From: a virus
Virus record (IMG/VR): IMGVR_UViG_3300043449_002191
Span: 93,342 to 157,341 of that record
Reading direction: 5' to 3' (one strand)
DNA: 64,000 nucleotides
Position numbers and translations under genes: made by a program. Below are positions 27,126 to 54,158 of the stretch, piece by piece. The notes under the pieces were generated by a model. The model was not told the DNA's origin. It did no database searches and worked only from the letters and a program-made list of their open reading frames with translations. How positions within the stretch are numbered: position 1 is the first letter of the stretch; each line of letters starts with the position of its first letter.

Positions 27126-29210
27126 ATGGCTAAAGATAACGAAAAGAAACAGCCGATTTTAGCATTAGATCCAGTCTCATATAATATGCTCAAAAAACAA
27201 GAGCAAGATGAGATTGAATCTGCTAGTGCAAAAACAGAAAAAACTGAAGCTCAAGAAAAGTCAGTTCTCGGCATGATTCTAAAGTCACTTCAAAGTCAAG
27301 CTGCCCAACAAGTCGATAGGATGGCCTTTGAGGTTGATCCATTAAATCATAATACTAATACAGCAAACTTTTATAAAGTAAAAACTAATCTTACCCCAGA
27401 TCACGTCATTAAAAAGCTTATTGGTCCAAGTGGGGATGAATTAGTTTCACAAATTCTACAAGCAAGAGCAAACCACATCTCCGCTTTTGGTAGACCTAGA
27501 ACGGATAGATTTTCTACAGGCTTTGATTTTGTCGATATGGATAAAAATGCCATTAGGACAGAAGAAGAGCAAAAAGCTTTACAGGAAAGAGTAGAAAAAG
27601 CCAGAGCATTTCTTTGGAAATGCGGCTTAGAAAAACTTGATACTGAAGCTGATCAGCCTAATTTAAGTCAAATACTCAAACAAGTTGTCAGAGATGGTAT
27701 TGCTTACGGAAGGCTCGCAGTAGAACATTTATACGGAGCAGACCCTAAAACTGGTAAAAAAGTTTATTACGGCTTTAGACCTGTTGACGCCGGAACTGTC
27801 TATAAGATTTTACCTAAACGTGAACAAGACCAGACTTTAAGGGCTCAAGCCGTATCTATTTTAGCTGGTCTTAAAAACGAAAAAATCAGCGTAGAAAAAT
27901 ACAAAAAAGACGAATACAGATACGTTCAAGTTATTGACGGTAAACCTGTCCAAGCATTTGCAGAAGAAGAACTTTCGCTATACAATCTTTATCCTGTCAC
28001 AAACGTAGAATACAATGGCTATCCGCTAACTCCAATTGACCAAGCTTTAAATGCAATCATGACTCACATCAATATTGCAATGCACAATAAGCTGTACTTC
28101 CAAAACGGAAGAGCAGCCAAAGGGATGCTTATTTTTAAATCTGACAGTATAGATGAGTCAACTGTACAGAAGATTAGACTTCAATTCCATCAGTCAATTA
28201 ACTCAGTTCAGAATTCCTGGAGAATGCCAGTATTTGCAGTTGGTGCAGAAGATGACGTACAATTTTCTTCAATAGATACTCAAGGTCGTGACGCAGAGTT
28301 TCAATATTTAATGGATAACAATGCCAGGGTAATCCTTTCGTCTTTCCAAATGTCCCCAGAAGAATTACCTGGGTATGCTCACCTTGCAAGAGGTACTAAC
28401 ACACAGGCTCTTTCAGAATCTGATAATGAATGGAAGCTTACTGCAGCCCGTGATGTAGGTTTACGTCCACTAGTTCTTGATATTCAAGATTTCTTAAATA
28501 ATCATATTTTACCTAAAATTGATGCAGAGTTAGCTAAAACCCACCAAATTGTTTTGGCTGGATTAGAAAAAGATAGTCCAGAAAAAGAAGCTACTAGATT
28601 GCAGCAAGATATGCCTATTCATATGACCTACAATGAGGTCTTGGAATACGTAGAAAAGAATTTGTTAGACAAGTCAGTTGGTGGAGACTTCCCATTAAAC
28701 CCACAGTACCAAGCTATTATCAGTCAATATCTTACAGTAGGTCAAATATTAGAAAGCTTTTTTGGCGTTAAAGACGCATCTAAAGACCCACGTTATCAGT
28801 ACGTAAGAGACCCTTTCTGGTTCCAAAACCAGCAAATTTTATTACAAAAAGCTCAAGTTGCTATGCAGCAACAAATGATGGTTGAGCAACAAATGCAACA
28901 ACAAATGATGGCACAACAACAAGCTGCTATGGGCCAAGATCCTAATGCTCCACAAGAAGGCCAAGATCAATCTTTACCACCACAACAAGGTTCAAATCCA
29001 CAAGATAATATGCAGAAAAATTCTGAATGGGCTATAGCAAATTATCAAGTAATGGAAAAGGCTATTAAAAACAACCACAATTCCATTTCAAAAATGCTCC
29101 TAAATAGACATTCGCAAATGGTAGATAAGCATTTATCTAAATGGTCCGAAGACTCCAAAAAAGCCCTAAAAGAGCTAGAAAAGGTCTTAAAAGATAAGAA
29201 AGAGGACTAA
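27126..29210 (+). CDS. Portal protein
   Basis: A 694-residue portal, the dodecameric head vertex through which DNA passes. It is placed after terminase and before a MuF-like protein. The core has the usual portal features: LKQVVRDGIAYGRLAVEHLYG, ITHINIAMHNK-type helices, and MSPEELPGYAHLARGTNTQA followed by an Asn/Glu-rich helix. The C-terminal 130 residues contain a Gln/Met-rich stretch (AQVAMQQQMMVEQQMQQQMM) and then a basic coiled coil, longer than in typical portals. The stop abuts the next ATG without a gap. Assignment is good, although portals diverge strongly. Confidence 0.85.
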   Translation: MAKDNEKKQPILALDPVSYNMLKKQEQDEIESASAKTEKTEAQEKSVLGMILKSLQSQAAQQVDRMAFEVDPLNHNTNTANFYKVKTNLTPDHVIKKLIGPSGDELVSQILQARANHISAFGRPRTDRFSTGFDFVDMDKNAIRTEEEQKALQERVEKARAFLWKCGLEKLDTEADQPNLSQILKQVVRDGIAYGRLAVEHLYGADPKTGKKVYYGFRPVDAGTVYKILPKREQDQTLRAQAVSILAGLKNEKISVEKYKKDEYRYVQVIDGKPVQAFAEEELSLYNLYPVTNVEYNGYPLTPIDQALNAIMTHINIAMHNKLYFQNGRAAKGMLIFKSDSIDESTVQKIRLQFHQSINSVQNSWRMPVFAVGAEDDVQFSSIDTQGRDAEFQYLMDNNARVILSSFQMSPEELPGYAHLARGTNTQALSESDNEWKLTAARDVGLRPLVLDIQDFLNNHILPKIDAELAKTHQIVLAGLEKDSPEKEATRLQQDMPIHMTYNEVLEYVEKNLLDKSVGGDFPLNPQYQAIISQYLTVGQILESFFGVKDASKDPRYQYVRDPFWFQNQQILLQKAQVAMQQQMMVEQQMQQQMMAQQQAAMGQDPNAPQEGQDQSLPPQQGSNPQDNMQKNSEWAIANYQVMEKAIKNNHNSISKMLLNRHSQMVDKHLSKWSEDSKKALKELEKVLKDKKED

Positions 29211-30125: not shown

Positions 30126-31832
30126 ATGTCACTGAAAATCGATGGTATTGCCGCATCATCTGCTTTAGATAGTTCTGGTGAAATACTGGAAATAGAAGGC
30201 TTAGATATCTCCGATTTTATCGAAGGTCGTGGTGTACTTAACTGGGAGCATGATAATAAGCATGAAAATACAGTTGGTGCCATAGTCTATGCTAAAAAGA
30301 TTTTACAAAAATCTGACTGCGAAAATGATCGTCAACGTAGGTATTGGGACTCAGTAAAAAAGCCTTTTGTGTATATAATCGGCGAACTTTTTGATGACGA
30401 AGATCATCCAGGCGCAATTGCTATTGCAGCTATGATCAGATATTATTCTAAAAAATCAGAAAAAATGCTAGTTGGCTTTTCAATTGAAGGTTCTACTCTA
30501 GAACGTGATGGCAATATGCTTAAACAGGCTATTGCTAGGCGCTGCGCTATTACCATTAAACCTGCCAATAAAACTGCTATTGCCGACATCTATGAAGATG
30601 AAAAAGTCAAAAAGCTTATGAATGACATGGAAAAATCCCAATCAGACGTACAGCTATTTGAAGTAGACTCTTTTACATTAGAAGATAAAGAAGTTCCATA
30701 TTCCCCATACATGGAAATCCATAAGGCTATTGAAGATCTAAACAAAACATTGACTGCAGGCATGGGTAATGTAGCTCCAAGCCAGTTAGTAGGTGGAGCA
30801 GCTTTAGTTCGTGAGCAATTAAGCGGAACTCAAAAAAATAAGGTAAAAGCCGCCCTAAGAGACTGGGATAAAAGAACGCCCTTAAAACAAGTAATTAAAA
30901 ATGTATTGCCAGAAATTGGCGATAAATATGTAGAACATTTTACTGATTTAGCCGAAGACTTGATGCTTAAAAAATCTATGCAAAATCCAGCAGTTAGATT
31001 ATCATCTAAGCATGGGCATACTCCTCTCCATCCAGAGCAAAACGAATTAATTGAAGGTCTTCAAGTTACACAAGACTTAGATAAAATGCCAGTATTTAAA
31101 CCAAAACACGACCTTTACGGTTCCGCTATATATAAAGGTAAAAACGACAAAGGTCAAACAGTTTTAATTAAAAGCCCAGAAAAAGATAAACCAGAAGACT
31201 TACACAACTTTGCTCAAAAAGCTTCTATGTACCATGGAATAGCAAAAAGCGTTTTTGGTCTTGGCGACAATGTGCCTGAAACAGCAGCATTTAAACATGA
31301 AAGCTTAAAAAACTCAAATAAACATCATGGAGATTGGTTCCAAGCTATTGAGCATAAAAAGGACACTAAGACTCCATTGGAAGACCAAAAAGGGTATAAC
31401 GCCGTTATTGCTACACCTGAAGGTCAAGATAAGCTTTCAAAGCTATTGATAATGGACCATATTTTAGGTGGTAGAGATAGACACGCCGGAAATATTTTAT
31501 TTGATAAAAAAGGCGAGCTGCACCTTATCGATAATGATAGATCTTTTGATCATTACGACTCAGACTTTTTACCTTCAGAAACACACGAAGAAATAATGCC
31601 TGAAAATGGATTTTTAATTTCCGATGATACCGCAAATTGGATTAAAAAAGTTGACCCAAAAATTTTACTTAAGACTATGCTAGACCATGGTATACACCAT
31701 GATACCGCAAAAAAATCCATTTTGAAGCTAAAAGCTTATCAAAAAATGGCAAAAAAGGGATATAATATTAAAGATTTAATAGATAAAGCTCATATGTCTG
31801 TGAGTGCTGCACCCAAGGAAAAGGTTAAGTAA
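30126..31832 (+). CDS. Prohead protease (S78/XkdF-like) fused to a PI3/4-kinase/HipA-like kinase domain
   Basis: A 568-residue two-domain protein. Residues 1-170 look like a phage prohead serine protease: a strand-rich start (KIDGIAASSALDSSGEIL), candidate catalytic His42 in VLNWEHDNKHENTVG and Ser119 in VGFSIEGST. Residues about 320-500 look like a kinase of the PI3/4-kinase/HipA kind, with IKSP near the ATP-site Lys, the catalytic loop DHILGGRDRHAGNILFD (about 443-459) and the metal site HLIDNDRSF. Between them, residues 215-227 (NVAPSQLVGGAAL) repeat a peptide of the capsid protein (NVAPSQLVQGSAL, 21-33). I infer a maturation site that could free the kinase domain inside the head. The order after portal and MuF fits a protease. 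The fusion is striking; kinase activity is untested. Confidence 0.8.
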   Translation: MSLKIDGIAASSALDSSGEILEIEGLDISDFIEGRGVLNWEHDNKHENTVGAIVYAKKILQKSDCENDRQRRYWDSVKKPFVYIIGELFDDEDHPGAIAIAAMIRYYSKKSEKMLVGFSIEGSTLERDGNMLKQAIARRCAITIKPANKTAIADIYEDEKVKKLMNDMEKSQSDVQLFEVDSFTLEDKEVPYSPYMEIHKAIEDLNKTLTAGMGNVAPSQLVGGAALVREQLSGTQKNKVKAALRDWDKRTPLKQVIKNVLPEIGDKYVEHFTDLAEDLMLKKSMQNPAVRLSSKHGHTPLHPEQNELIEGLQVTQDLDKMPVFKPKHDLYGSAIYKGKNDKGQTVLIKSPEKDKPEDLHNFAQKASMYHGIAKSVFGLGDNVPETAAFKHESLKNSNKHHGDWFQAIEHKKDTKTPLEDQKGYNAVIATPEGQDKLSKLLIMDHILGGRDRHAGNILFDKKGELHLIDNDRSFDHYDSDFLPSETHEEIMPENGFLISDDTANWIKKVDPKILLKTMLDHGIHHDTAKKSILKLKAYQKMAKKGYNIKDLIDKAHMSVSAAPKEKVK

Positions 31833-32437
31833 TGAAAGTCTATGTCATTAAAAGCGTAAACTCAGACATCCCCTTGGCTGAAATCAGAACTGATGGCAGA
31901 TCTGTTGATTTTATTGTAGATAATACTGAAGGCCAACTTCCATCAAAAGTGGGCAATAGCCTAGAAGCGCTTAAAAAATACCTAAAGTCTTCTAGTATCT
32001 ACTTAGAAGAACCAACTCAGCCTACAGCACATTTAATCAGATACGTTCTATCAAACGGAGATGTTGCTGAAATCACTACTGACGGTAAAACCTGCCTTTT
32101 AAATGGTAACCTGCTAACTGAGCAAGAAAAATATGCTCTATTTGATGCTATTAAAAGAAAAGAAATTCAAGTATCTAGAAAATCTGATGATATACAACCA
32201 GTTTTACCTAAAGCGCAAAAGCCTTTAGAGGAAATTAAGCCAAAACAACTGCACCCTACTATTCAATCTCAAATGAAAGAATACTTTGAAGAAAAAAGAA
32301 AGCAATTGGAAAAATCAACACCAGATATGGATCATGAGATTGAAGATTCTGTGGCTAAGATGGCCGGAGACAGACAAGAAGTAGGCTTTGTAAGGGACCT
32401 TTTGTATTGGTTAAAGCACGGAGGCAATCGTGAATAA
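31832..32437 (+). CDS. Hypothetical protein with internal duplication
   Basis: A 201-residue protein whose start overlaps the previous stop as TAATG. The first half holds two related units of about 50 residues, each with the pattern AEIxTDGxxxxxxxN (LAEIRTDGRSVDF and VAEITTDGKTCLL), pointing to a duplicated small beta domain. The second half is a charged helix (QMKEYFEEKRKQLEKS). No family is recognised. Its end overlaps the 2068-residue gene by 8 nt (GTGAATAA), so the two are coupled. Confidence 0.65.
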   Translation: MKVYVIKSVNSDIPLAEIRTDGRSVDFIVDNTEGQLPSKVGNSLEALKKYLKSSSIYLEEPTQPTAHLIRYVLSNGDVAEITTDGKTCLLNGNLLTEQEKYALFDAIKRKEIQVSRKSDDIQPVLPKAQKPLEEIKPKQLHPTIQSQMKEYFEEKRKQLEKSTPDMDHEIEDSVAKMAGDRQEVGFVRDLLYWLKHGGNRE

Positions 32438-35400
32438 GACTTTTTTTGACGAAAACACCTCTCCACAAGAGCTTGAATCTACAATAAATCAATATATTGA
32501 TACACCAAAAGATAGTCACCCAGAAGACTTATCAGAAAAGGTATATGAAGCTGCCGCACATCCTCAAATGCCAGCAGCGCATTTATCTAAACTTTACCTT
32601 CATAACATGGCAAAACCAGAAAATACTCCAGAAAATATAGGCAGCCATGAAAGTATAGACTCAGATTTAACTGAAAAAATACTGCAAAATCTAAATACAC
32701 CTAAAGATATACATGAGCAGCACCTTGCAGCTACTCATTCTTCTAATAGCGAGCATCATAACTATGCTATTTCAAATCCTGCAGTATCTAATGATGTTAT
32801 TCAGTCATTTTTAGAAAATAGAGCAAAATCGGAATCTGCTTGGAATATGCCAGCAGAAGAAAATGTCCATCCCGATGTTGGGTTTAATCTATTTAATAAA
32901 GGCCGTGAACTTAAAGACATTGATCCAAAGCATTCAGAAGCACTTAAAGAATATGGATTAGATATTCTACAAAATTCTAAAAAACATACAGACGAAACAT
33001 TAAAGAGAGTAGTAGATGCTTATCATAAAGGCCAGCCATTAAATAGCGGCTTTTTGGGCAATCTTATCTCAAAAAATAAAAATTTGACAAAAGACCAGTT
33101 AAATCAAATTCACAATAAGCATACATCATCTGAAGAGTTTGATCCTGATTATGGTAGCAGTGTTATTTCTTCTATAGCAGAGCATCCTAATACTGATCCA
33201 TCATTACTATCACTAATCGCTAACGATAAAAAGTATAAAAACCATGCATCTGATGCTTTAAAAAATCCTGCGCTTCCTATGGAAGTATTCAATAATAAAA
33301 TTTCAAAATTACCTAAAAGAGGAAATGAACATTACGATCATAATGATGAAATTACTGAATCTTTACTGCAAAATCCAAATATAACAAAAGACCAAGTGTC
33401 AGAACTTTTTAAAAAAGGGTTTAAATCAGCGTTAAATCATGAAAAAACTGATGAGTCATTAATTGAAAATCATTGGAATAGCTCTGACAAAAGCGCAGAT
33501 GCTGCGAATAAAATTTTGCGAACAAAAAACTTGCCTGAAAGTGTCTTAAAAGAGCTTGTTAATCATAAAAATCAAGACGTAGCAATTGAAGCGTTAAATC
33601 ATAAGAATGCTACAGAAAACGTAGTAAATGAAGGTTTAAAAAGAAAAGCTAAAGCAGTACAAGAAGAGGCAGCTAAGCACCCTCTTGTAAAAGATAGAGC
33701 TATTACTGAAAAGCTAAAAAATAAATCAGTAAACGCCTCTACTATAGCTTCTGATAATGATTATAAAGAAAAGTTTGATAAACTTTCCGATTTGGATAAA
33801 TCTAATCTAATTAACCACTTCCATGAAAAGCTCTCAGGCTCAGACATTGATGCAATTGCTAAGAATTCAAAAGAAAAGAAGTCTGATGTATTATTGGCAA
33901 AAAGATTCTTAGCTAGGGATAAAAGTGTACCACAACACATCAAAGACCATCATTCAGATGAGTTTTTTGATATGTTTACTAAAGAATTTGGAACTAATTC
34001 AGATATAAACGTAGATAGAGATGATTTACACAAAAGGCAGTTATTCCAAACCGCAAGAGACCTTTTATCAGATGAAAATCCAACAGCGCAGAAAAGATTG
34101 CTAGAGCATACACCTTTGATGTCAGCGTTAGGCCCTGATGTGGCATCTAAATCTAAAAATCCTGATTTTATTAAAAAGCTAGTCAAAAGAGCTAAAGACG
34201 CTGATGGTGAATCAATAATAGATCGCTGGGGGCACCCAAGACCATATAATTCGTCTGACTTAAGATTATCTGTATTAAAAAATCCAAATCTAAGCCTAGA
34301 AGATCTTAAAGGTCACTTGTCCGACCCGTCTTTTAATGATTTTGATAAATATGCTTTGAATAATATTATGGATAAAACAAAAGGTTCCCCAGAAAAACAA
34401 GCAGAAACACTAAGTTTTTTAAAAAATTTAAACAGACCAGAAGTAAACAAACACCTGCTGTTAGGCAGTTTTTTGACTGGAAATGACCAAGAATCAGCAT
34501 TTGAAAACTTAGAGTCAAAATACGATAAAAGTGAATTTTTAAAGGAAAATGCAGACAAAATTTCTCCATCGTTAGCTGACAGAATTTTAAGTGGCGAATT
34601 TAATGATAATTACACACAAATGAAACATAATCTTTTTAGTGGATTAGAAAATCCCCCTAAAGAAATTGAAGATAAAGTTTTAAATCATTTAGACGAACTT
34701 TCTAAAGGCCCTGTAGCCGATTTAACTGATTCGTTAAACAGTATCTCTAATAGTTTTAAAAAATCTGAAAGATGGAAAAATAACGCTAAAGAGCTGTCAG
34801 CATCAAATCCAACTTTAGCTTCTCAAATGTATTCTCATCATATTGATGTGCTGCCAGCAGAAAAACAAAAAGATGCGATTAGCAACCTTGAAGCTTATGA
34901 AGATTCATTGGGCGTAAGTCCAGAACAAAAAGATATGAGAAAAAAAGCTTTTTGGAAAGCTCAATTGCTAAATATAAATAGGTTAGGTAGAGTATTTGAA
35001 AAAGGAGAATTAGATCATTTAGCAGATCTGCAGAGTACAGATGAAGACGAAACCGCTCTTTCTATCAAATCCCTTTTATTAAACAAACGATTATTGTCAG
35101 ATAACAAAGCTAGCGAAATAGTAGCCAAAGACCCTTCTTTATTTGAAGATTATTATAACTCATTACATAAAATAGATGATAAAATTAAATCTATTGATAG
35201 CGTAATAAATAATCCTAATTCAGATAAAAACTTGCTTTTTAAAGCTGTAGGCAAAATAAATCCTACACATTTATCAGAATATAAAATTGATAAAGATAAC
35301 CAAAATGAAGTTGCAAAGAAATTAGCCAATAAAATTGCTGATTTAAGTAAACTTCAAGATCAAAAACACTTACAGACAGCAGTTCAGGGGCTTACACGCC

Positions 35401-38400
35401 CTATTAAAGGGCATTTAACTGAGGGTGTTTCTGAATCTTTAATTAAAAAAGCTGCCGATGAAATCTTAAAAAACGATAAAATACCCCAAGATAAAAAAGT
35501 AAGAATGTTGTCAGCAGTTTCTTCTGCTATGGATGTCAAAGGGGTAACACATCAAGCAACTTCTAAATTTTTAACTAAGGCTGTATCTGAATCAGAAGAT
35601 GTCAATACACTGCTACCTGCTATCCAGTCTTCTACATTTGATTTTGCAACAAAAACTTCTATGGCTAAAAAAGCAAATGAAATGCTATCAAACCCAGAAG
35701 CTATAGCTAAAGTTGATACCCAAAAATTGCTAGACTTTACTACTAATGCAAACTGTACGGCAGAAGTTAAAACTTTGGTAGCTAACAAAGCAACTGAAGA
35801 ACTTTTTCAAGAACAAGACCTTGATAAACAAGTAGAAAAAGCTGAGAAATTAGCATCAGCGCTAAACTACTCATCAAACGATAGCAGCTTTAATTCTGAC
35901 GCTAGAATTTACCATTTAGCCGAACATCCAAATCCAGAAGTAAGAATGGTCGCCTATAAACAAATGAGATCCACTCTTTCTTCAAACGGAATAGAAAGCA
36001 ACATTGAACTATACAAGAATATGCCAGATGATATTAAGCTTCATCCAATTGATATTGATCAAAATGAAGCAAATAATGCTGATTTTGTAGAAGCATCGAC
36101 TAAAGGCTGGAAATTAGATACATTAATTGTTAATGGTGGAGTTTTAAACAAAGAAAACTCAAAAGTAATGATTAATAGAGCTATTGAGTCCGAAGATCCT
36201 GCCCATAAAAGATTGGCACTTCAATCTTTAATGTCATCTGTGTATACAGACAAAAATGACCTAACTAAACTTGCCAGAGCATCTAGCGAAGAAGACCTAC
36301 TAAAGTCTCTTTCAATAGTCCAAAATCCATTCCAACTAAATGCACATTTTGCTTTATCTGAATTGATGGATAAAGTAGATCAAAAAATGGAAAATCCAGA
36401 GATGGTAATTCATGGTGCTAAATTTTTAGACAAAGAGCATACAAAAAATGTACTTTCTATCCTAAGCGATATTGCCAGTAATATAGGAAAAACTATATTT
36501 GATGAAGGCACTTACGATATTAACGCAAAAAACGAAGTGTATGAAGAGGTTATTAACAAGCATACGGACCATTCCAATACTATTTTGAATAATCTTAAAA
36601 ACCAAATTTTAGAAGAACCATCTGAAACTAAAGTTAAAGTAAATAGTTTAATCAATAACCTAAGAAATATTGTTGCGAATAGTGGGTTAAAGTTTAGCAA
36701 AGAAACTCACAATAAGCTAATGGAGTCCTATAATTTACATAAAGACCTTTATGAAAAATTGGGTACAAGATTTAACACTCCAGTTCTATTAGGTGGAATT
36801 ATTGAAAAAACAGAAGGATTAAATTCCGAAGATTGGAAATCTCTTTTTGAAAAAACTCCTGAATCCAAATATTTTATTGGACATAGATCATCTATAGGAA
36901 CAGACATTTCAGATCATCTATCTTTTTCTAAAGAGGATCAAAATTGGAGTCATTCACCTGTAGCTGTTCAATTTGCTTTAGATAAACTTGATTCCCAATC
37001 TTTAGATAAGCATGGCAAAAGACTTTTTACCGAGGCTTTAAATGCAACAAATGGAAGTCCTAATCAAAAATATGTTATTGAGACTGGTTTAAGTAAAATG
37101 GGCGATAGGCTTAATCATAAAGACTTATTGGACATAAGAAAAGCTTTACCAGAGTTTAGTCAACATTTTGATACCGTAGCTATTAAATCTGGTGCAGGCG
37201 GAAAAGAGCTTTTAGCCGATTCAGTCAAAAAAGTGGAAGAACTTGCTAAAAACAAAGAACAATCTAGCGTTGAGCTTTTATCTGCAATATGCAGAAGTCG
37301 CCACTTAGACGAAAATCTAGCAAATAAAATGTTGGAAATTCATGATAATCACCCAGAAGTAATGGAAGAACTCGCTAACAATAACTCAGTTCACCCTAAC
37401 GTATTGCTTAAAATTCAAAACGAAGCCGCTAAATTGTCACCAAGAACATCTAAAAAGATTGTGGACGCAGTTATTTCAAACTCAAATACTCCATTTGATG
37501 TTGTTAAAAAGGCATTTGAAACTACTCAAAAAGAGTATAAACCATATTTCATGAGCAATACTTCATTTAACCCTGCGCTAGATAACTCTAAATGGGGACC
37601 TAGCCTATTAAGAGAAATGCCAGTAGTCTTACCTGAAGGGCTTCAAAACGTAGATGGGAACTCTTTAAAGCAAAAAACTTCAGAATTTTCTACCGAGTAT
37701 TCAAATAAACGTAAAAAAGCCCTTAATGTAATGGCAGCTATACCTGATACTGGTATTAACTGGGTTGAATTTAAGCGACAAAATCCGTCACTAGAGGCTG
37801 GATTACCAAAAGAAGTTAAAGATATTTTTACTAGAAATGCTAACACTCCAATAACAAAAGAGAATATGGTATCTCTGGTAAAATCTATGGATTCAGAGCA
37901 AAAGAAAAGAGAGTACCACTTAGCGTATTCATCTTGGAGTGGGGTACAAACTCATACTGGAGGCAAAAATCTTGTTATGACTTTAAATCTATCTCAGCAA
38001 ACTGAAGAAGAGCTTAAAAAAGACCCCAAAGTATTTGCTTTATATAAAAAAGTTACTCAAATTGCAAATGGAATATCTGGTAAATCTATAGGAGCGCACC
38101 CAACAACACCATATGCTGTATCTTGGTCTAGAGTTGATACTGATCAAAACGGTGAAGCCTGGGTAATTGAAGAGCTTCAAGCAGATGCTGTACAAAAATT
38201 TAGATCTAATTTCAGAAGAATACTCAACAATATGGCCTCTGGGTCAAATATTGATGGCCATAGTATAACTTCAGAAGAAATGAAATCAATGGTTAAGACT
38301 ATTGAAAAAACTTTTGATGGATGGGACCGAGCTACTATAAATGCAGTTATAGAAAATGCAAAGGCTCATGGAATTAAAAAGCTTTATATGCACGGTCTTG

Positions 38401-38636
38401 GAATCAGAAGCTGTATGTCTGGTGGAGAAATCGGCGGTCCCAAATACACTAAAGACTATATTAACCCAAATATTAAAAGGCTTTATGACCAATTGCCTCA
38501 AGAGTATGGTTTTTCAAAGTGTAAATACTCAGATTACCCCAAAAATAACGCAAAAAGATTCAACGATGATCTTAAGAGCAGAGAATTAAATGATGATTGT
38601 TGGGTACTTGACTTAGAGGAGAAGCCTAAAGCCTAA
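32430..38636 (+). CDS. Giant 2068-residue repeat protein with polyvalent-type C-terminal domain
   Basis: The largest gene here. It starts at GTG with GGAGG 5 nt upstream. Most of the length is made of degenerate helical repeats of about 26 residues, with a NPxhxxxhhxxhh core: NPAVSNDVIQSFLENRA, HPNTDPSLLSLIANDKKY, NPNITKDQVSELFKKG, NPNLSLEDLKGHLSD. This is the same pattern as the near-identical repeats of the Nudix protein at 61994. It probably folds as a long alpha-solenoid. The last 170 residues differ: WVIEELQADAVQKFRSNF, AHGIKKLYMHGLG and YDQLPQEYGF resemble a domain found in phage polyvalent proteins (EEIQSDW...YD..LP). Its location in the head module suggests a virion or ejected protein (inference). 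No enzyme activity is assigned. Confidence 0.75.
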   Translation: MNKTFFDENTSPQELESTINQYIDTPKDSHPEDLSEKVYEAAAHPQMPAAHLSKLYLHNMAKPENTPENIGSHESIDSDLTEKILQNLNTPKDIHEQHLAATHSSNSEHHNYAISNPAVSNDVIQSFLENRAKSESAWNMPAEENVHPDVGFNLFNKGRELKDIDPKHSEALKEYGLDILQNSKKHTDETLKRVVDAYHKGQPLNSGFLGNLISKNKNLTKDQLNQIHNKHTSSEEFDPDYGSSVISSIAEHPNTDPSLLSLIANDKKYKNHASDALKNPALPMEVFNNKISKLPKRGNEHYDHNDEITESLLQNPNITKDQVSELFKKGFKSALNHEKTDESLIENHWNSSDKSADAANKILRTKNLPESVLKELVNHKNQDVAIEALNHKNATENVVNEGLKRKAKAVQEEAAKHPLVKDRAITEKLKNKSVNASTIASDNDYKEKFDKLSDLDKSNLINHFHEKLSGSDIDAIAKNSKEKKSDVLLAKRFLARDKSVPQHIKDHHSDEFFDMFTKEFGTNSDINVDRDDLHKRQLFQTARDLLSDENPTAQKRLLEHTPLMSALGPDVASKSKNPDFIKKLVKRAKDADGESIIDRWGHPRPYNSSDLRLSVLKNPNLSLEDLKGHLSDPSFNDFDKYALNNIMDKTKGSPEKQAETLSFLKNLNRPEVNKHLLLGSFLTGNDQESAFENLESKYDKSEFLKENADKISPSLADRILSGEFNDNYTQMKHNLFSGLENPPKEIEDKVLNHLDELSKGPVADLTDSLNSISNSFKKSERWKNNAKELSASNPTLASQMYSHHIDVLPAEKQKDAISNLEAYEDSLGVSPEQKDMRKKAFWKAQLLNINRLGRVFEKGELDHLADLQSTDEDETALSIKSLLLNKRLLSDNKASEIVAKDPSLFEDYYNSLHKIDDKIKSIDSVINNPNSDKNLLFKAVGKINPTHLSEYKIDKDNQNEVAKKLANKIADLSKLQDQKHLQTAVQGLTRPIKGHLTEGVSESLIKKAADEILKNDKIPQDKKVRMLSAVSSAMDVKGVTHQATSKFLTKAVSESEDVNTLLPAIQSSTFDFATKTSMAKKANEMLSNPEAIAKVDTQKLLDFTTNANCTAEVKTLVANKATEELFQEQDLDKQVEKAEKLASALNYSSNDSSFNSDARIYHLAEHPNPEVRMVAYKQMRSTLSSNGIESNIELYKNMPDDIKLHPIDIDQNEANNADFVEASTKGWKLDTLIVNGGVLNKENSKVMINRAIESEDPAHKRLALQSLMSSVYTDKNDLTKLARASSEEDLLKSLSIVQNPFQLNAHFALSELMDKVDQKMENPEMVIHGAKFLDKEHTKNVLSILSDIASNIGKTIFDEGTYDINAKNEVYEEVINKHTDHSNTILNNLKNQILEEPSETKVKVNSLINNLRNIVANSGLKFSKETHNKLMESYNLHKDLYEKLGTRFNTPVLLGGIIEKTEGLNSEDWKSLFEKTPESKYFIGHRSSIGTDISDHLSFSKEDQNWSHSPVAVQFALDKLDSQSLDKHGKRLFTEALNATNGSPNQKYVIETGLSKMGDRLNHKDLLDIRKALPEFSQHFDTVAIKSGAGGKELLADSVKKVEELAKNKEQSSVELLSAICRSRHLDENLANKMLEIHDNHPEVMEELANNNSVHPNVLLKIQNEAAKLSPRTSKKIVDAVISNSNTPFDVVKKAFETTQKEYKPYFMSNTSFNPALDNSKWGPSLLREMPVVLPEGLQNVDGNSLKQKTSEFSTEYSNKRKKALNVMAAIPDTGINWVEFKRQNPSLEAGLPKEVKDIFTRNANTPITKENMVSLVKSMDSEQKKREYHLAYSSWSGVQTHTGGKNLVMTLNLSQQTEEELKKDPKVFALYKKVTQIANGISGKSIGAHPTTPYAVSWSRVDTDQNGEAWVIEELQADAVQKFRSNFRRILNNMASGSNIDGHSITSEEMKSMVKTIEKTFDGWDRATINAVIENAKAHGIKKLYMHGLGIRSCMSGGEIGGPKYTKDYINPNIKRLYDQLPQEYGFSKCKYSDYPKNNAKRFNDDLKSRELNDDCWVLDLEEKPKA

Positions 38637-39722: not shown

Positions 39723-40589
39723 ATGAATCAGCTATATACAGATCAAGACTTGGATGCTATCATTGCTTCTGTCGAAGAGGCTTTGTCTAAGGCTGAAGTA
39801 TTGGCAAAATCTTCTCTCAGAAAAGATGGCCAAGAAGACGAAGAGCAAGAGCAAGAAGCTCCTGCTGCTGATCAAGCTCCCGAAATGCAAGAGCAAGCCC
39901 CTGCTCCTGATGCTCAAATGGATGAGCAACAAGCACAGGCCCCATCCGAAGAAGCTCCTGAAGAAGCACCTGCTCAAGATGAGCAAGCTGCCCCTGAAGA
40001 AGCACCTGCTCAAGATGAGCAGATGGATGAAGCTCAAGCCGATCAATCACTAGAGCAAGAAGCTCAAGGCGACGAGGACCAAGCCCTTACGGATGAGGAA
40101 TTGGCTCAGATTTATGGAAGTATGGACCCACAGGAATTGGAGCGCCATTATTCTGTTATCCGCCAAATGATTGAACAAGCTTATGCAAAAGCGGAAGCTG
40201 ATGAGTCCGAAGAGGATGAATCCAAGGAAGAAGAAGAAAAAGAAGAAGATGAAAAAGACGAAAAAGAGAGCATGGAAAAGTCAGAAAAGATTTCTGCTTT
40301 AGAAAAGCAAATCGCTGACCAGAACAAAGCTCTTGAAAATATTGCAAAAGCGTTTGAAATTATTGCAAAACCTCAACGCAAAGCAGTTACTGAAATCGAT
40401 TTCATCAGAAAATCAGAAGCCGAAAGCTCTGATAAAACAATGACATTGGAAGAAGTTAAAGCTAAAGCTAATAAACTTGCTCCAGCGTCACTCACCAAGT
40501 CTGAAAGAGATCAAGTGAACTCTTTTATGCTTTACGGTGAAGGAAAAGAACAAATTGAAAAACTAATTAAGTCTAAGGGAGGAAACTAA
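39723..40589 (+). CDS. Scaffold-like acidic protein
   Basis: A 288-residue protein directly upstream of the major capsid gene. Residues 40-115 are extremely acidic and low complexity, rich in Glu, Gln, Pro and Ala, including two copies of a 12-residue unit (PEEAPAQDEQ) encoded by a 36-bp direct repeat. A second acidic run (ESEEDESKEEEEKEEDEKD) precedes a coiled coil (ISALEKQIADQNKALENIA). The C-terminus is basic and helical, as in capsid-binding scaffold ends. LAPASL near residue 252 faintly resembles the VAPSQL peptide shared by capsid protein and protease and may be a cleavage site. Scaffold is the best reading by position and composition. Confidence 0.7.
   Translation: MNQLYTDQDLDAIIASVEEALSKAEVLAKSSLRKDGQEDEEQEQEAPAADQAPEMQEQAPAPDAQMDEQQAQAPSEEAPEEAPAQDEQAAPEEAPAQDEQMDEAQADQSLEQEAQGDEDQALTDEELAQIYGSMDPQELERHYSVIRQMIEQAYAKAEADESEEDESKEEEEKEEDEKDEKESMEKSEKISALEKQIADQNKALENIAKAFEIIAKPQRKAVTEIDFIRKSEAESSDKTMTLEEVKAKANKLAPASLTKSERDQVNSFMLYGEGKEQIEKLIKSKGGN
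39957..40021 (+). repeat. 36-bp direct repeat within the scaffold-like gene
   Basis: Two nearly identical copies beginning at 39957 and 39993, in frame and encoding PEEAPAQDEQ. It is a local coding duplication in low-complexity sequence. Confidence 0.8.
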
Positions 40590-40590
40590 A

Positions 40591-41979
40591 ATGAATGACC
40601 TAGTAAAAACACTAGAAACATTAGTTAAGACCTTGGAAGCAGGTAACTATAACGTAGCTCCTAGTCAGCTCGTCCAAGGTTCTGCTCTCCAGATCGAAAA
40701 CTTGGAATCTGTCATGCACAACACTACGTTTGATGACAGTCACATCAAGCTTCAGAAGCTTTTTTCTGTAAAGAAAGCTAAGAGCTTGCTTGTGCAATTT
40801 AACCGTCAATTGTCTTATGGACGTTTTGGCGGATCTGCTCAGCGTGAAGGCGCTGTAGGTGACATCAATGTTGGCGACTACGTTCGTGCGACTGTCCCTA
40901 TGTGCTTCTACTCTGCAGTAACACGTGTAACAGTTGCTGCCAATATGATGGAAACCATCGATGGCAAAAAAGCTGAAGACCGTGAAGCAGATAACATTGC
41001 AATGAAAATTGCAGGGGACATCGAATTTGACTCCTTTAAAGGTAAGTCAGATTTCTCTAACGCAGGGGTATTCGATGGAAACCCTCTTGCTATGCCAGAG
41101 CTTCCTAGTATGCTTGGTGTTGACGCTCAAATCCGTCAATCGGATATGATCGTTTCTACTCAAGATCTTATGTTTGCAGCTTTTGGTTCAAATCAAAGTG
41201 TTGTTCTTTCTAAGAACGGCGCTCTTGATCAACCACACATCGAAGACCTTGCTCTTCGCAGCCGCATGAACATGGGTAAAGCTGAAACTCTTTTTATTGA
41301 CCCTGTTGTTCTTTCTGGATACAACAAGGCAGTTGCCCTTGGATCAGGATCTAACGCTATTCAACGTATCGTTTTAGCTGGTTCTGCTCAAGACGCTTCT
41401 GGAGCTGATCTTCGTCGTCAATGGGTTTCTAACGGAACTGTGACTCTTGAAGATTCTCGTTTCCTTTCTGGAAAAACTGCTCCTCAACGTCCTATGATCG
41501 GTTCACCTGCTGCTCCTGCTACTGTTGCTGGAACTGCAGCTCCAGGCGGAATTATCCCTGCTGGCGATCATGTTTACGTAGTTACTGCTGAAAACGAAAG
41601 AGGCGAAGGCGTTGCTAAAGCTTCTGCTGCTGTAACAGTTGCTGCTGGTGAAAAAGTTGATCTTGTTATCGCTGGTGTTGCTGGCGCTACTCATTACAAC
41701 GTATACCGTGGCGCTTCTGCTGCTTCTGCTAAGTTTATCGGTCGTGTTAAAGCTGATGGTGCTGCAAGTGTTACTTTTGTTGACCTTGGAAACAAAGCTC
41801 CAGCTTTCGTAACTGGTTACCTTATCCAAAAAGATACTTGGGGATTCCATGAGCTTGCTCCATACTCTCGTATGAAGCTTGCTATCAGCGATTTATCAGT
41901 TCCTGAAGCTCACTTCAGATTCTTGTCTCTTGCTGGATATCAACCACGTAAGAACGTTATCTCTGATAACTTGTTCTAA
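40591..41979 (+). CDS. Major capsid protein with inserted FN3/Ig-like domain
   Basis: A 462-residue capsid protein, identified by its place after the scaffold-like gene, its strong upstream signals and a strong terminator right after it. The N-terminus is helical and contains NVAPSQLVQGSAL at 21-33, shared with the prohead protease (215-227), so residues before this point may be removed on maturation. Residues about 305-405 form a beta-sandwich insertion of FN3/Ig type (GDHVYVVTAENERGEG, ATHYNVYRGASAASAKFIG), followed by the capsid C-terminus (YSRMKLAISDLSVPEAHFRF). Such domains usually project from the head surface. HK97 fold is assumed, not shown. Confidence 0.85.
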   Translation: MNDLVKTLETLVKTLEAGNYNVAPSQLVQGSALQIENLESVMHNTTFDDSHIKLQKLFSVKKAKSLLVQFNRQLSYGRFGGSAQREGAVGDINVGDYVRATVPMCFYSAVTRVTVAANMMETIDGKKAEDREADNIAMKIAGDIEFDSFKGKSDFSNAGVFDGNPLAMPELPSMLGVDAQIRQSDMIVSTQDLMFAAFGSNQSVVLSKNGALDQPHIEDLALRSRMNMGKAETLFIDPVVLSGYNKAVALGSGSNAIQRIVLAGSAQDASGADLRRQWVSNGTVTLEDSRFLSGKTAPQRPMIGSPAAPATVAGTAAPGGIIPAGDHVYVVTAENERGEGVAKASAAVTVAAGEKVDLVIAGVAGATHYNVYRGASAASAKFIGRVKADGAASVTFVDLGNKAPAFVTGYLIQKDTWGFHELAPYSRMKLAISDLSVPEAHFRFLSLAGYQPRKNVISDNLF

Positions 41980-48293: not shown

Positions 48294-48905
48294 ATGAAAA
48301 AAATGCAAAGAGACGATATAGATAAATTTTTTGATTACGAGATTTATTTACCCACCAGGACTTTGTATATGGGTTCGGCGTCTTATGACGAAGAAAATGG
48401 CGAATCTGGCACTGATGGTGCTATGGCCGAAAGAATTATCAAAGGGCTTCACATTTTAGACTCTTCCGCACCTTCAAATGATCAACCTATTACTATTATA
48501 ATGAACAATCCAGGTGGTGATGAATATCATGGGATGGCTATTTACGATGCAATAAAGTCTTGTAAAAATCATGTTACAATCAAAGTTATCGGTCATGCCA
48601 TGTCTATGGGCTCTATTATTTTACAAGCTGCAGACCATAGGGTTATGTCTCCTAATTCACGAATGATGATTCACTACGGAACTAAGAGTATTCAAGATCA
48701 CGCTAAAAACTTCTACAAATGGACGGACGAAGGTAAGAAATTTGACTCCTGGATGGAGCATCTATTTTTAGAAAAAATCAGAGAAAAGAATCCGCATTTT
48801 ACTTTAGCTAAAGTAAAACATATGTGCAATTTTGACACCTTTCTATCGGCAACAGAGGCTATTCAGTTGGGGCTTGCTGATAAAATATTAGGAGAAGATG
48901 AATGA
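48294..48905 (+). CDS. ClpP-like serine protease
   Basis: A 203-residue protein of normal ClpP length. The catalytic triad is complete: Ser in HAMSMGSIIL, His in SRMMIHYGTKS, and Asp in FDTFLSATEAIQLGLAD, aligning with S97, H122 and D171 of E. coli ClpP. The handle and substrate strand appear as IIMNNPGGDEYHGMAIYDA. It would form a barrel protease that needs an unfoldase, either host ClpX/ClpA or a phage one. It is the first gene of a short operon that also encodes a second ClpP (49466), a membrane protein and a small protein. The pair may form a mixed barrel (inference). Confidence 0.9.
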   Translation: MKKMQRDDIDKFFDYEIYLPTRTLYMGSASYDEENGESGTDGAMAERIIKGLHILDSSAPSNDQPITIIMNNPGGDEYHGMAIYDAIKSCKNHVTIKVIGHAMSMGSIILQAADHRVMSPNSRMMIHYGTKSIQDHAKNFYKWTDEGKKFDSWMEHLFLEKIREKNPHFTLAKVKHMCNFDTFLSATEAIQLGLADKILGEDE

Positions 48906-49171: not shown

Positions 49172-49469
49172 AGTAGTCTCCTTTAAGGCAAATATAAACC
49201 CTAGCCTGGATATACCAGCTAATCAGTCTCATCCAATCTACGATGAGTACGGGTCATTAGTTGGAGCCTTCAATATCAAAGAAGAAGGCGCAGTGATTGG
49301 GTTTTTGTCTACAAAAGGGTACGAGCTATCATTAGAAATATCTCTAGGCGAACCCTTTTACATTACATTAAATCCTGGGGACGATGGAAAAATAGAAAAA
49401 GGTCTAGTAACTAGAAATAAAATTGGTATTAATTCAGCAAAAATCTCTAAAATTGAGGAGTCGTTATGA
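49164..49469 (+). CDS. Hypothetical protein
   Basis: A 101-residue protein starting at GTG, which overlaps the previous stop as GTGAATAG and has GGAAGAGG upstream. It looks like a small beta domain (VVSFKANINPSLDIP, GAVIGFLSTKGYELSLEIS, EPFYITLNPGDDGKIEKG). It lies between the two ClpP genes and overlaps the second by 4 nt. No family is recognised. Confidence 0.65.
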   Translation: MNRVVSFKANINPSLDIPANQSHPIYDEYGSLVGAFNIKEEGAVIGFLSTKGYELSLEISLGEPFYITLNPGDDGKIEKGLVTRNKIGINSAKISKIEESL

Positions 49470-50233
49470 GTAAAGTTGAACAAAGATTTGGTATGTTGCA
49501 CGGATTTCCTGAATTTGGAGGTAACTGTATTTGGGTTACAGATTTTGATCAAAGTGCCACCCTGAGATTTTTTGAGCAATTTCTTGAACTGGAAAAAAAT
49601 CCAGCCGTTAAAATCATCCCCGTCTTCATCAGCAGCTACGGTGGAGAAGTTTACTCTCTTTTAGCTATGCGTGACTTGATGAAAAGTTCAAGCAAACCAG
49701 TGGCCACTATTGCTGTCGGTATGGCCATGTCCTGTGGAGCTTCACTACTTGCCGCTGGGACTAAAGGCTTGAGATTTGCTGCAACTAGTACTGATATCAT
49801 GGTCCATCAAGTAAGCGCAATGACTGCAGGTAAAACATCAGATGTGATTGAAGGAGCCATGGCTATTGCTAGACTTAACGACCAATGGCTTAATCTATTT
49901 GCTAAAGATACTGGCCGCCCCATCCATAAGATTAAAAAAGCTATTACTGATCGCCATAATACTGATTGGATTATGTCTCCTGAAGAAGCAAAGCACTGGG
50001 GGATTGTAGATGAGATTGGCCTCCCAAGACTTATGAGCTATGAGCCAGAAGTGGTCCTAGCTAAACCGTTATCCTTTGACTCTAAAAAAGCTTCTAAAGC
50101 CAGAAAAAGACCTAAAAAAGAGGAGCCTAAGCCTAAAAAGGACGAAGCCAAGACTAAAGTCAAGAAAGATGAGCCTAAATCTAAAAAGGACGAAGCCAAG
50201 ACTAAAGTCAAAAGCAAGAAAAAAAACACCTAA
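49466..50233 (+). CDS. ClpP-like serine protease with lysine-rich tail
   Basis: A 255-residue second ClpP of this operon. Catalytic Ser is in GMAMSCGASLLAAG, His in TDIMVHQVSAM and Asp in TDWIMSPEEAKHWGIVDE, giving a full triad. SYGGEVYSLLAMRDL is the glycine substrate strand. The first 195 residues are the protease; the last 50 form a lysine-rich tail with a repeated KKDEAKTKVK unit (48-bp DNA repeat), unlike normal ClpP. The tail could bind nucleic acid or an acidic partner such as the scaffold-like protein (inference). The start overlaps the previous gene as ATGA. Confidence 0.9.
   Translation: MSKVEQRFGMLHGFPEFGGNCIWVTDFDQSATLRFFEQFLELEKNPAVKIIPVFISSYGGEVYSLLAMRDLMKSSSKPVATIAVGMAMSCGASLLAAGTKGLRFAATSTDIMVHQVSAMTAGKTSDVIEGAMAIARLNDQWLNLFAKDTGRPIHKIKKAITDRHNTDWIMSPEEAKHWGIVDEIGLPRLMSYEPEVVLAKPLSFDSKKASKARKRPKKEEPKPKKDEAKTKVKKDEPKSKKDEAKTKVKSKKKNT
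50133..50211 (+). repeat. 48-bp direct repeat encoding the ClpP lysine-rich tail
   Basis: CTAAAAAGGACGAAGCCAAG recurs at 50133 and 50181, in frame, encoding KKDEAKTKVK twice. This is a recent local duplication. Confidence 0.8.
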
Positions 50234-51575: not shown

Positions 51576-54158
51576 ATGAAGCTAAAGGATTGGCTCTCTA
51601 AAAGAACAGAAAGCATTAATCCAGTCGAAAAGACTGTTTCATATATTCCTTTATTAAATTCGCTGGAAAAAAGTTTTGGTGACGAAATTTATCCAGTAAT
51701 TACAAAACATATCAGCAAAGATCTTACCACCAAAGAGGCTAAAAAACTTGCTTTAGACCTATTAAATAAGTCTTTTAATTCTTTAGTAAAAACAGAATGG
51801 ATTGAAAGCTATAAGTCGCAGTTCCAAAAAGATTATGCCGAAAAAAGTCTACAAAAAGATGTGGCTCTACTTATAAAAGGCTTCAGTATATCTTCTAGTG
51901 ACATGGAAAATCTAATCCTTTTTGACGGATTAAATAAAAGTATGGCCGAAGCTCCTCCTAAGTATGTGGGTGAGCGTCATTCTTATAAACCGTATATTGG
52001 CAAAATACATTCTGATGGTAAACTATCCTGGTATTATAACGACAATCAGTCTAAAATTAATGATACTGAAATTGCTACAGGTTTTCAAAATTGGCTAGAA
52101 AGAAATCATTCATCAGAAAATCACCCAATTATTAGACAATTTTTTAAACAAGCAATGTCATCAGACACAAGACACGCAGTTCCTGCCAGAGACAAAAGTC
52201 CTGGACCAAATATGGTTAGAGCTAGGCATCTTAAAGCTATAATGCAAAATAAAGATGTAATGAATTTTAATGTAAGCCCTCATAAAATATCTATAGCACT
52301 TAAGCGTCACATTCAAGGTGAGCCTATTCATGAGTGGGAATTTACACCTAAAGGCGGCATCAAAGATATTCAGCATCAAAGATCTGGCCAAATGGCAAAA
52401 TCAGAAGACTTAGAAAAAGGTTTACATGGCGATTGGAAAAAAGAGGGATATAAGATTGTCGCTAATTATAACGAAGATGAAAAACAAAACAAAGCGGGAC
52501 TTGCAAACGCATACACAACAAAAGTGTTTGATAAAAACAATAATCACGTTGGCGAAGCTAGCTTTGTCTTACACCCCAATGGGGACGAAGTAAGCGTAAG
52601 CTCTTATGTACATCCAGACCACCAAAGAAAAGGTATTGCCACAGCTATGTATCAAATGGCAGAAAAATATTTTAATTTACCTATAAAAGCCGAAACCCAA
52701 ACCTCTTCAGCCAAAGCTCTTTGGTCCCAGCCTAACCGATCTTTCGGTAAATCAGAAGAGCTTAACAAAGCCGTAGATAATAAAGACTGGTCTAAAATCG
52801 CTAATAAGCATTTTGAAGATGGCGCATTAACAGTTAATCATAAAGGTCATATAGAACAATCTTCCGTTGACCCATCATATAATCACTTACTTTCTGCCCC
52901 ACAAAAATTTAAAGGACATAAGCTTAGTGGTGGTGGAATCTCAGCTAAAATGGTTCATCATATGAATGGTTACTACGATGAAGGCGGAGACTTTGTTTCT
53001 ACACCGCAAAAAACAAATACTTTTATGACAAAGCCATATCATAGAATCCCAGAAAGTCACACAAAATCATGGGTAGATAAGCCTATTTTAGGTTGGGCTA
53101 CAATGACCACAAAGAATTTATTCAATGCAGGCGGCATAGGGCATTTAGCAGAAGACGTGCATACACATGAACATGAAGGTGTGCCTGTAACAGTTCACAA
53201 GTTTGCTAAAGGCTATTCTCCAGTAGCTACTGATGAAACTCTACATAAAAAACAAATTAATCCAGATGACCTACAAAAAATTGCTATTATGGATTACCTG
53301 ACTGGCAATAACGACAGGCATAGCGGAAACATCCTTACATCAAATCATCAGGATGATGAAGGCTATCATAAACCGCTTGCAATTGATCACGAAAGAAACT
53401 TTCAATATAAGAAAAAGCTAAACAGTTTGGGTGGGAAATATCGCCCTATAGATGAAAGTGAAACTCCTCAAGCATTTATGCAGCGCCCTGGAATGAATCA
53501 TGTTAAACATCAAGCTAGATGGTTTTCTCATGAAGAGCCTGTCAATTGGTGGGGCCAAAATAAGCATAAAATTAAGAATCAAATGGAAGCAGAACTTGCC
53601 CATATAAATGATGAAGGCGTCAGAAATCACGTCAGAGACAATTTTAACCATAGATGGGAAAAATTAAGCAGTTGGGCTGATAATCTCAATTCGAGCCAGG
53701 ACTTTTGGAACAAAGACGACTTCCATGTACCATTTAAGGACACAAGAATTATTAAACAACAAGCACCTAAAATTACTAGCAAATTTATCACTGATCAGTT
53801 TAAAGGAGACCCAAAAGCGGCCATCAATCAAATAAGTGATATAATTAATTCAAAGGGTAAGCTTACCGCTAACCAACATCATGCTGTTAAAGCTGGCATG
53901 GATTCGGTTATCAGAAGCTTAAATCCTGAGCAGGCTAAAGACTTACTTAATCATGCTCTAGATAACCCTAAGCTCAACACTAGCGCTCTAAGGAACCATC
54001 ATTTGGACCTTAAAACTGCCCTGTTGACGGGATTGTCCGATAACAATATGACAGAGCATATGCGATCAGTGGCCGATCACATAGACTCCCTACCTGAAGA
54101 GAAGAAAGGCTCTTTACCCCAATGGTCTGAATTTTTCAGACGTAATTTGGCCAGATAA
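51576..54158 (+). CDS. Virion-module protein with GNAT and PI3/4-kinase/HipA-like domains
   Basis: An 860-residue multidomain protein with AAGGACG before its ATG. After about 290 unassigned residues, positions about 305-390 look like a GNAT acetyltransferase: GEASFVLHPNGDEVSVSS and VHPDHQRKGIATAMY (the acetyl-CoA pyrophosphate loop), then SAKALWSQ. Residues about 400-640 look like the same kind of kinase as in the protease fusion at 30126: catalytic loop IMDYLTGNNDRHSGNIL (about 570-586, DRH) and metal site LAIDHERNFQY (about 602-612). The last 170 residues are helical. Neither activity is a normal structural function, so I infer an enzyme cargo or a tail/neck protein that modifies host targets. 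Substrates are unknown. Confidence 0.75.
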   Translation: MKLKDWLSKRTESINPVEKTVSYIPLLNSLEKSFGDEIYPVITKHISKDLTTKEAKKLALDLLNKSFNSLVKTEWIESYKSQFQKDYAEKSLQKDVALLIKGFSISSSDMENLILFDGLNKSMAEAPPKYVGERHSYKPYIGKIHSDGKLSWYYNDNQSKINDTEIATGFQNWLERNHSSENHPIIRQFFKQAMSSDTRHAVPARDKSPGPNMVRARHLKAIMQNKDVMNFNVSPHKISIALKRHIQGEPIHEWEFTPKGGIKDIQHQRSGQMAKSEDLEKGLHGDWKKEGYKIVANYNEDEKQNKAGLANAYTTKVFDKNNNHVGEASFVLHPNGDEVSVSSYVHPDHQRKGIATAMYQMAEKYFNLPIKAETQTSSAKALWSQPNRSFGKSEELNKAVDNKDWSKIANKHFEDGALTVNHKGHIEQSSVDPSYNHLLSAPQKFKGHKLSGGGISAKMVHHMNGYYDEGGDFVSTPQKTNTFMTKPYHRIPESHTKSWVDKPILGWATMTTKNLFNAGGIGHLAEDVHTHEHEGVPVTVHKFAKGYSPVATDETLHKKQINPDDLQKIAIMDYLTGNNDRHSGNILTSNHQDDEGYHKPLAIDHERNFQYKKKLNSLGGKYRPIDESETPQAFMQRPGMNHVKHQARWFSHEEPVNWWGQNKHKIKNQMEAELAHINDEGVRNHVRDNFNHRWEKLSSWADNLNSSQDFWNKDDFHVPFKDTRIIKQQAPKITSKFITDQFKGDPKAAINQISDIINSKGKLTANQHHAVKAGMDSVIRSLNPEQAKDLLNHALDNPKLNTSALRNHHLDLKTALLTGLSDNNMTEHMRSVADHIDSLPEEKKGSLPQWSEFFRRNLAR

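Follow-up and report, generated by a model that had tools for sequence, protein, structure and literature searches.

A predicted head maturation protease joined to a PI4K-like domain, with a putative cleavage peptide shared with the major capsid protein

Why should a phage head protease carry a kinase-like domain in its own reading frame, and does a peptide that it shares with the major capsid protein (MCP) mark where the two parts come apart? The question is raised by a 568-aa ORF in the window, which is the 64,000-nucleotide stretch of DNA analysed here and lies at the very end of a viral record of 157,341 bp. The ORF is open in one frame and is flanked by portal/minor head genes and by scaffold/MCP genes. 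The features on which a preliminary description of this DNA had relied, namely the 568-aa frame, His42, Ser119, a D-HILGG-RDRHAGNIL loop and the two related peptides, were all found where it had placed them. By combining several enzyme domains, protease and kinase, in a single polypeptide encoded between the portal and MCP genes, the ORF shows the layout of polyvalent proteins (Iyer 2017).

27126-29210, + strand: portal protein (phrog_15361, E 8.9e-23).
30126-31832, + strand: head maturation protease-PI4K-like kinase fusion, 568 aa (matches to phrog_1028 and PF00454).
39723-40589, + strand: scaffold with 8 [hyd]xK[AST] sites against 1.1 expected; a homologue lies upstream of the MCP in phage Mx1.
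40591-41979, + strand: MCP, 462 aa, with 55% identity to the annotated Mx1 MCP.

The N-terminal part of the ORF is, as judged from its sequence and model, an assemblin-like head maturation protease with predicted activity. Residues 5-235 match phrog_1028 (head maturation proteases) with an E value of 1.7e-12, and N39, E41, H42, S119, E121, and G122 are invariant in a 32-row protease alignment. A model covering residues 1-292 is similar in fold to herpesvirus assemblins (E 9e-4 to 4e-3); its matches include 4v07 (E 8.7e-4) and the proteases of KSHV and HCMV (E 3e-3 to 4e-3), with a low TM over the whole model. No profile match to Peptidase_S78 (PF04586) was found anywhere in the whole record, and the protease is not filed as S78. 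The profile, the invariant His42 and Ser119, and the model support the earlier assignment of this part as a head maturation protease.

30126-30605, + strand: protease catalytic domain, residues 1-160, with His42 and Ser119 (invariant residues; model matches herpesvirus assemblins).
30828-30980, + strand: conserved helical tail, residues 235-285 (model helices 235-245, 253-260, and 266-285; conserved across the clade).
31005-31775, + strand: PI4K-like kinase domain, residues 294-550 (model, PI4KII-alpha match, domain HMM E 2e-57).

The C-terminal part has a PI4K-like kinase fold, again by profile and model, and its phosphotransfer activity is putative. Residues 435-480 match PF00454 (PI3/PI4 kinases) with 28.7 bits, the curated cut-off being 27.1. 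The model of residues 293-568, built from a 41-row alignment, has a pLDDT of 86.5 and a pTM of 0.89, and its best match among solved structures is human PI4KII-alpha (4hne, E 7.5e-7, TM 0.56). The catalytic residues K349, D451, N456, and D469 are all present. Structure prediction had been proposed in the preliminary description as a check on the kinase assignment, and the PI4KII-alpha-like model together with the PF00454 match recovers that fold.

Relatives were collected by MCP alignment, which gave 80 further viral loci; a direct protein search of viral contigs for relatives with the whole fusion returned none, and neither did an MCP search in genome contigs. A kinase-like domain forms the C terminus in 18 of 62 proteases, and in eight others a GGDEF domain, its GGDE motif mostly intact, takes the same slot (L056, L057, L058, L062, L064, L065, L075, and L082). 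Within the protease tree, the GGDEF cases are nested among those with a kinase. A stand-alone GGDEF gene lies close to the protease gene, or immediately follows it, in many of the kinase-bearing phages, so fusion with a neighbour is one route by which the slot may be filled. Short proteases with no effector domain also exist (L006, 300 aa; L084, 319 aa), and a large clade in which the protease lies on the strand opposite the MCP has neither a kinase nor a GGDEF domain. Other additions were seen in passing. The head proteases of L079, L023, and L044 have a DUF6321-type end (KRRKSFCARMSGVKGP), the Pfam match having been tested on L079 alone. The protease of L001 (13002-16721, residues ~330-1000) and the long proteases of relatives have a middle region of ~600 aa that contains VPDTHFTRYLFGL and has a faint likeness to HhH-GPD DNA glycosylases, with no Pfam match. 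In L080 (2353-7122) this region carries an intein-like insert (...LFSTMSPN↓CLDDKTEA...VFITGN↓TAVPLQEL...) at a place where Mx1 has LFSMLSPNKAVPMQEL; Pfam gave no intein or middle-region match there. Because inteins tend to insert at conserved active sites, this stretch may have an enzymatic function.

The kinase-like domain could be a pseudokinase with a structural or regulatory part in assembly, and not an injected effector, a reading that we place on the unlikely side. About five fused relatives have lost the catalytic Asp (L055 and L094-L097; among the L092-L097 kinase domains, the Asp of DRHxxN is lost in the last four with the fusion kept). Kinase activity is therefore not conserved throughout; those domains are pseudokinases or have some role besides phosphotransfer, and a non-catalytic role must be possible at least in them. 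However, the active-site residues are intact in the window and in most others. The family members that lack the domain indicate that it is not essential to maturation, and an enzyme of the GGDEF type can replace it. The same domain recurs downstream in a protein with a GNAT domain, beside an SLT-domain gene, and structurally similar domains occur in portal, MuF, ART, and Nudix proteins of other phages; in a viral structure library, uncultured phages are represented by portal and MuF-type proteins that contain PI3/4K-like domains.

51576-54158, + strand: second cargo candidate, 860 aa, with GNAT (308-367) and the same kinase family (422-705), from domain matches.
54168-55172, + strand: SLT transglycosylase-domain protein, adjoining the cargo gene (PF01464 E 1.4e-4, above the cut-off).

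A 1226-aa protein of another locus (L082:14434-18112) contains the kinase-like domain in three copies.

Between the protease and kinase-like domains lies the peptide shared with the MCP.

30738-30821, + strand: shared peptide in the protease, residues 205-232 (MCP alignment and profile; disorder predicted at 215-232).
40621-40704, + strand: shared peptide in the MCP, residues 11-38, with a cut predicted at K13↓T14 (P1 Lys in 82 of 82 MCPs).

The segments NVAPSQLVGGAAL (protease residues 215-227) and NVAPSQLVQGSAL (MCP residues 21-33) differ at two positions. The likeness already noted between the two proteins is real and longer than first described: the full match pairs protease residues 197-238 with MCP residues 3-44 at 52% identity, around a peptide of ~28 residues at the MCP N terminus. 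Its E value is 2e-6 within the set of head proteins and 4e-5 when all 157 kb of the record are considered. By profile, a phage's own protease and MCP share the peptide in 53 of 62 pairs, the window included, and it is present in both proteins of all five Herelleviridae examined, each with its own dialect; with this recurrence the likeness is not a matter of chance. Mx1 has its own variant, AMEAGNFNAxPSTL, in protease and MCP alike, and Brochothrix phage A9 has KSMTTGYxHGGTDQ in both. Proteases without the peptide belong mostly to the clade that lacks effector domains, and in the opposite-strand clade the peptide is often located further into the protein (residue 250-547), preceded by inserts, for example GNAT in L031. 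In the protease of the window, the model predicts a disordered peptide following a helix that ends at residue 210. A profile search of the loci found no third protein with the peptide. LAPASL in the scaffold, which the preliminary description had offered as a third site, is not recovered by this profile and does not reproduce the extended peptide; what is conserved next to it is LTK259↓SER, a site of the cut consensus described below.

The position of the cut is indicated by two characterized relatives. The mature MCP of phage A511 is annotated to begin SFTTGYG, after K23 (K23↓S24); this N terminus was reportedly determined by protein sequencing. The capsid chain of phage 812 in PDB 9row comprises exactly residues 25-463 and starts SFQTGYG after K24 (K24↓S25). 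In the window, the residues aligned with these two lysines are MCP K13 and protease K207, and P1 is Lys in all 44 distinct protease peptides as it is in the MCPs. This alignment predicts cuts at LVK13↓TLEAG in the MCP and LNK207↓TLTAG in the protease. The shared peptide, previously proposed to be the cleavage site, thus appears to be a maturation cleavage region, with the cut itself predicted after K207/K13, ~8-20 residues before NVAPSQL-GG-AAL. That motif is ruled out as the cut because the mature A511 and 812 MCPs begin after the homologous Lys. A mature MCP that keeps residues 14-20 would agree with the corrected model. A second predicted cut, at K283, probably separates the helical tail from the kinase, as judged by its sequence.

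30744-30749, + strand: predicted cut 1, K207↓T208 (P1 Lys invariant; homologous to the A511 and 812 MCP cuts).
30972-30977, + strand: predicted cut 2, K283↓S284, LKK↓SMQ (second consensus hotspot, after the tail).

It is unlikely that the shared peptide is mainly a docking element, a copy of the MCP N-terminal arm that binds the shell or scaffold, so that its ~25 conserved residues would not in themselves reflect substrate recognition and the kinase may stay attached. Such a role would fit conservation that extends to P25', far past the usual range of protease subsites, and the restriction of the long peptide to MCP and protease when other head proteins have the short cut consensus; the two copies also differ at fixed positions P7' (Y/G) and P16' (Q/G). 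However, the P1 Lys, one of the best-conserved residues of the peptide, coincides with the known MCP cuts, and docking and cutting are compatible roles. One result counts against the release scheme favoured below: within the family, residue-level covariation of MCP and protease peptides beyond phylogeny was null (partial Mantel r -0.01, p 0.52), and a positive outcome came only from the deeper comparison of own against other peptides.

The aligned sites give the consensus [hydrophobic]-x-K↓[AST]. A simpler motif, K[AST]-hydrophobic, was only modestly enriched and its reversed control pattern was enriched as well, so P3 was added. The 72 scaffolds contain 564 consensus sites against 124 expected (4.5-fold, z 43.6), although this z-score, like the others, overstates the evidence because the composition shuffles that supply the expectation ignore sequence relatedness. 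The stronger argument is specificity against control residues: patterns with Glu or Asp replacing Lys show no enrichment in scaffolds. Sites are also frequent in five Herelleviridae scaffolds (31 against 8 expected) and are depleted in MCP bodies (27 against 105 expected). The first site is prominent in the 24 effector-bearing proteases, and a second hotspot follows the helical tail (20 against 5.2, controls 0-1). A site lies within 45 aa upstream of the GGDEF domain in six of eight proteases (1.4 expected); the corresponding enrichment is weak for protease-fused kinases (6 of 16 against 3.1), for which the Asp control is equally high. For the kinase domains of non-protease cargo, 19 of 21 have a consensus site ≤45 aa upstream (4.8 expected), and sites are depleted inside these domains (12 against 20.9) and enriched outside them (71 against 34.5). 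The GNAT-kinase protein of the window has sites at K275, K392, and K398, of which K392 and K398 fall between its two domains.

These counts bear on a further reading, in which the C-terminal region of the protease is a mere propeptide that is cut off and then either degraded or lost from the head. Exit from the head is usual for phage propeptides (PMC10052503), and three consensus sites (K349, K374, and K516) fall within the window kinase itself, but a folded enzyme domain of ~30 kDa has been maintained, and cargo kinase domains contain fewer cut sites than expected; we regard this reading as very unlikely. Nothing was found to suggest that the fusion arose by misassembly or accidental read-through, and the single open frame in all six of the closest records searched and in phage Mx1 refutes this.

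Of the readings considered, we favour, with some reservation, the one in which the polyprotein protease trims the MCP, cuts the scaffold and itself, and frees the kinase-like domain in the head for ejection. The domain content, the shared peptide, its homology to known cut sites and the non-random placement of sites were computed directly; the cuts, retention in the head, injection and kinase action on a host target are inferred. The protease would enter the procapsid as one chain composed of protease, MCP-like cleavage peptide, helical tail, and PI4K-like domain. Once active, it would cut after Lys at [hydrophobic]-x-K↓[A/S/T]. The MCP would be processed at K13 and the scaffold broken into fragments, and the protease would cleave its own chain at K207 and probably at K283. 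The kinase-like domain (residues 284-568, about 32 kDa) would thereby be separated inside the head and later ejected with the DNA, and the C-terminal slot would be exchangeable, holding a kinase-like or a GGDEF domain. Because protease and capsid protein have the same cut site, release of the kinase-like part inside the head is likely, and the earlier proposal of a polyprotein layout that would free it is supported. Retention and injection are suggested by the known behaviour of polyvalent proteins (PMC5512222) and of SPN3US gp245, a protease that cleaves off a propeptide at its own C terminus (PMC10052503). If the scheme is correct, capsid maturation doubles as cargo processing, with the protease as the carrier that guarantees the packaging and timing of its effectors. 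Signalling enzymes of the PI4K-like and GGDEF types would then be linked to the first minutes of infection.

Parts of this scheme are found in known systems. Herelleviridae (SPO1 gp3.2/gp6.1, A511 gp84/Cps, and phage 812) have a homologous protease and MCP, the same peptide in the protease C-terminal part and the MCP N terminus, a Lys cut site and scaffolds likewise enriched in Lys consensus sites. Their proteases have about 256-274 aa and end in the tail, without a kinase or GGDEF domain, whereas that of the window has 568 aa; with these two genes compared, the protease tree puts Herelleviridae on a separate, deep, long branch. The named phage nearest to the window is Myxococcus phage Mx1, whose 'putative prohead protease' (WNM70322.1) is the same fusion, with a protease part 44% identical, the shared peptide, and a kinase-like C terminus. 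It has 1239 aa, including a middle region of ~600 aa that is absent from the window, and a separate GGDEF protein is encoded nearby. Since Mx1 has Myxococcus as host and carries the fusion, the idea is directly testable. In herpesvirus UL26, an N-terminal protease is followed, after a site that it cuts itself, by a C-terminal part with a function of its own; the protease (assemblin) has the same fold, but its partner is scaffold and not an enzyme as in the window ORF. In phage T4, Alt and the internal proteins are proteolytically cleaved. Like P1 DdrB, they are processed or delivered effectors of the kind proposed here, but they are not fused to a head maturation protease. The processing of DdrB occurs in connection with packaging, and Alt is injected with the DNA (PMC5512222). 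Polyvalent proteins of phages and plasmids carry kinases, GNAT, GGDEF, and ART domains near virion genes, some with assemblin-like peptidases that are reported always to be C-terminal (Iyer et al. 2017, PMC5512222); the peptidase of the window is N-terminal and is probably a head protease with an MCP-shared cut peptide. The view that kinase delivery by proteolysis would be a new mechanism is weakened by the polyvalent proteins, P1 DdrB, and herpesvirus UL26, since polyprotein effectors processed for packaging, and assemblin-like peptidases within them, were already described (PMC5512222). In the open-licence literature we found no description of cleavage mapping in Mx1 or of this fusion, of a head protease as N-terminal carrier with an MCP-shared release peptide, or of an exchangeable C-terminal slot with a common cut code in cargo.

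The placement of sites in cargo suggests a broader proposal, which we put forward tentatively and would hesitate to call probable: that one code, [hydrophobic]-x-K↓[A/S/T], bounds the domains in both protease and cargo, and that the head protease releases a whole set of injected effectors, so that maturation would trim the shell and also free exchangeable PI4K-like kinases and GGDEF cyclases for delivery. If so, the cut code would allow testable predictions of the injected proteins of these large phages and of the pieces in which they enter the host. Two further features of the locus were observed. A 2068-aa protein encoded between the protease and scaffold genes (window 32430-38636) has 19 consensus cut sites and no clear family match. 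Downstream of the capsid genes, two ClpP-family genes lie near each other (window 48294-48905 and 49466-50233; E 7e-31 and 4e-35), which are possibly a second processing enzyme.
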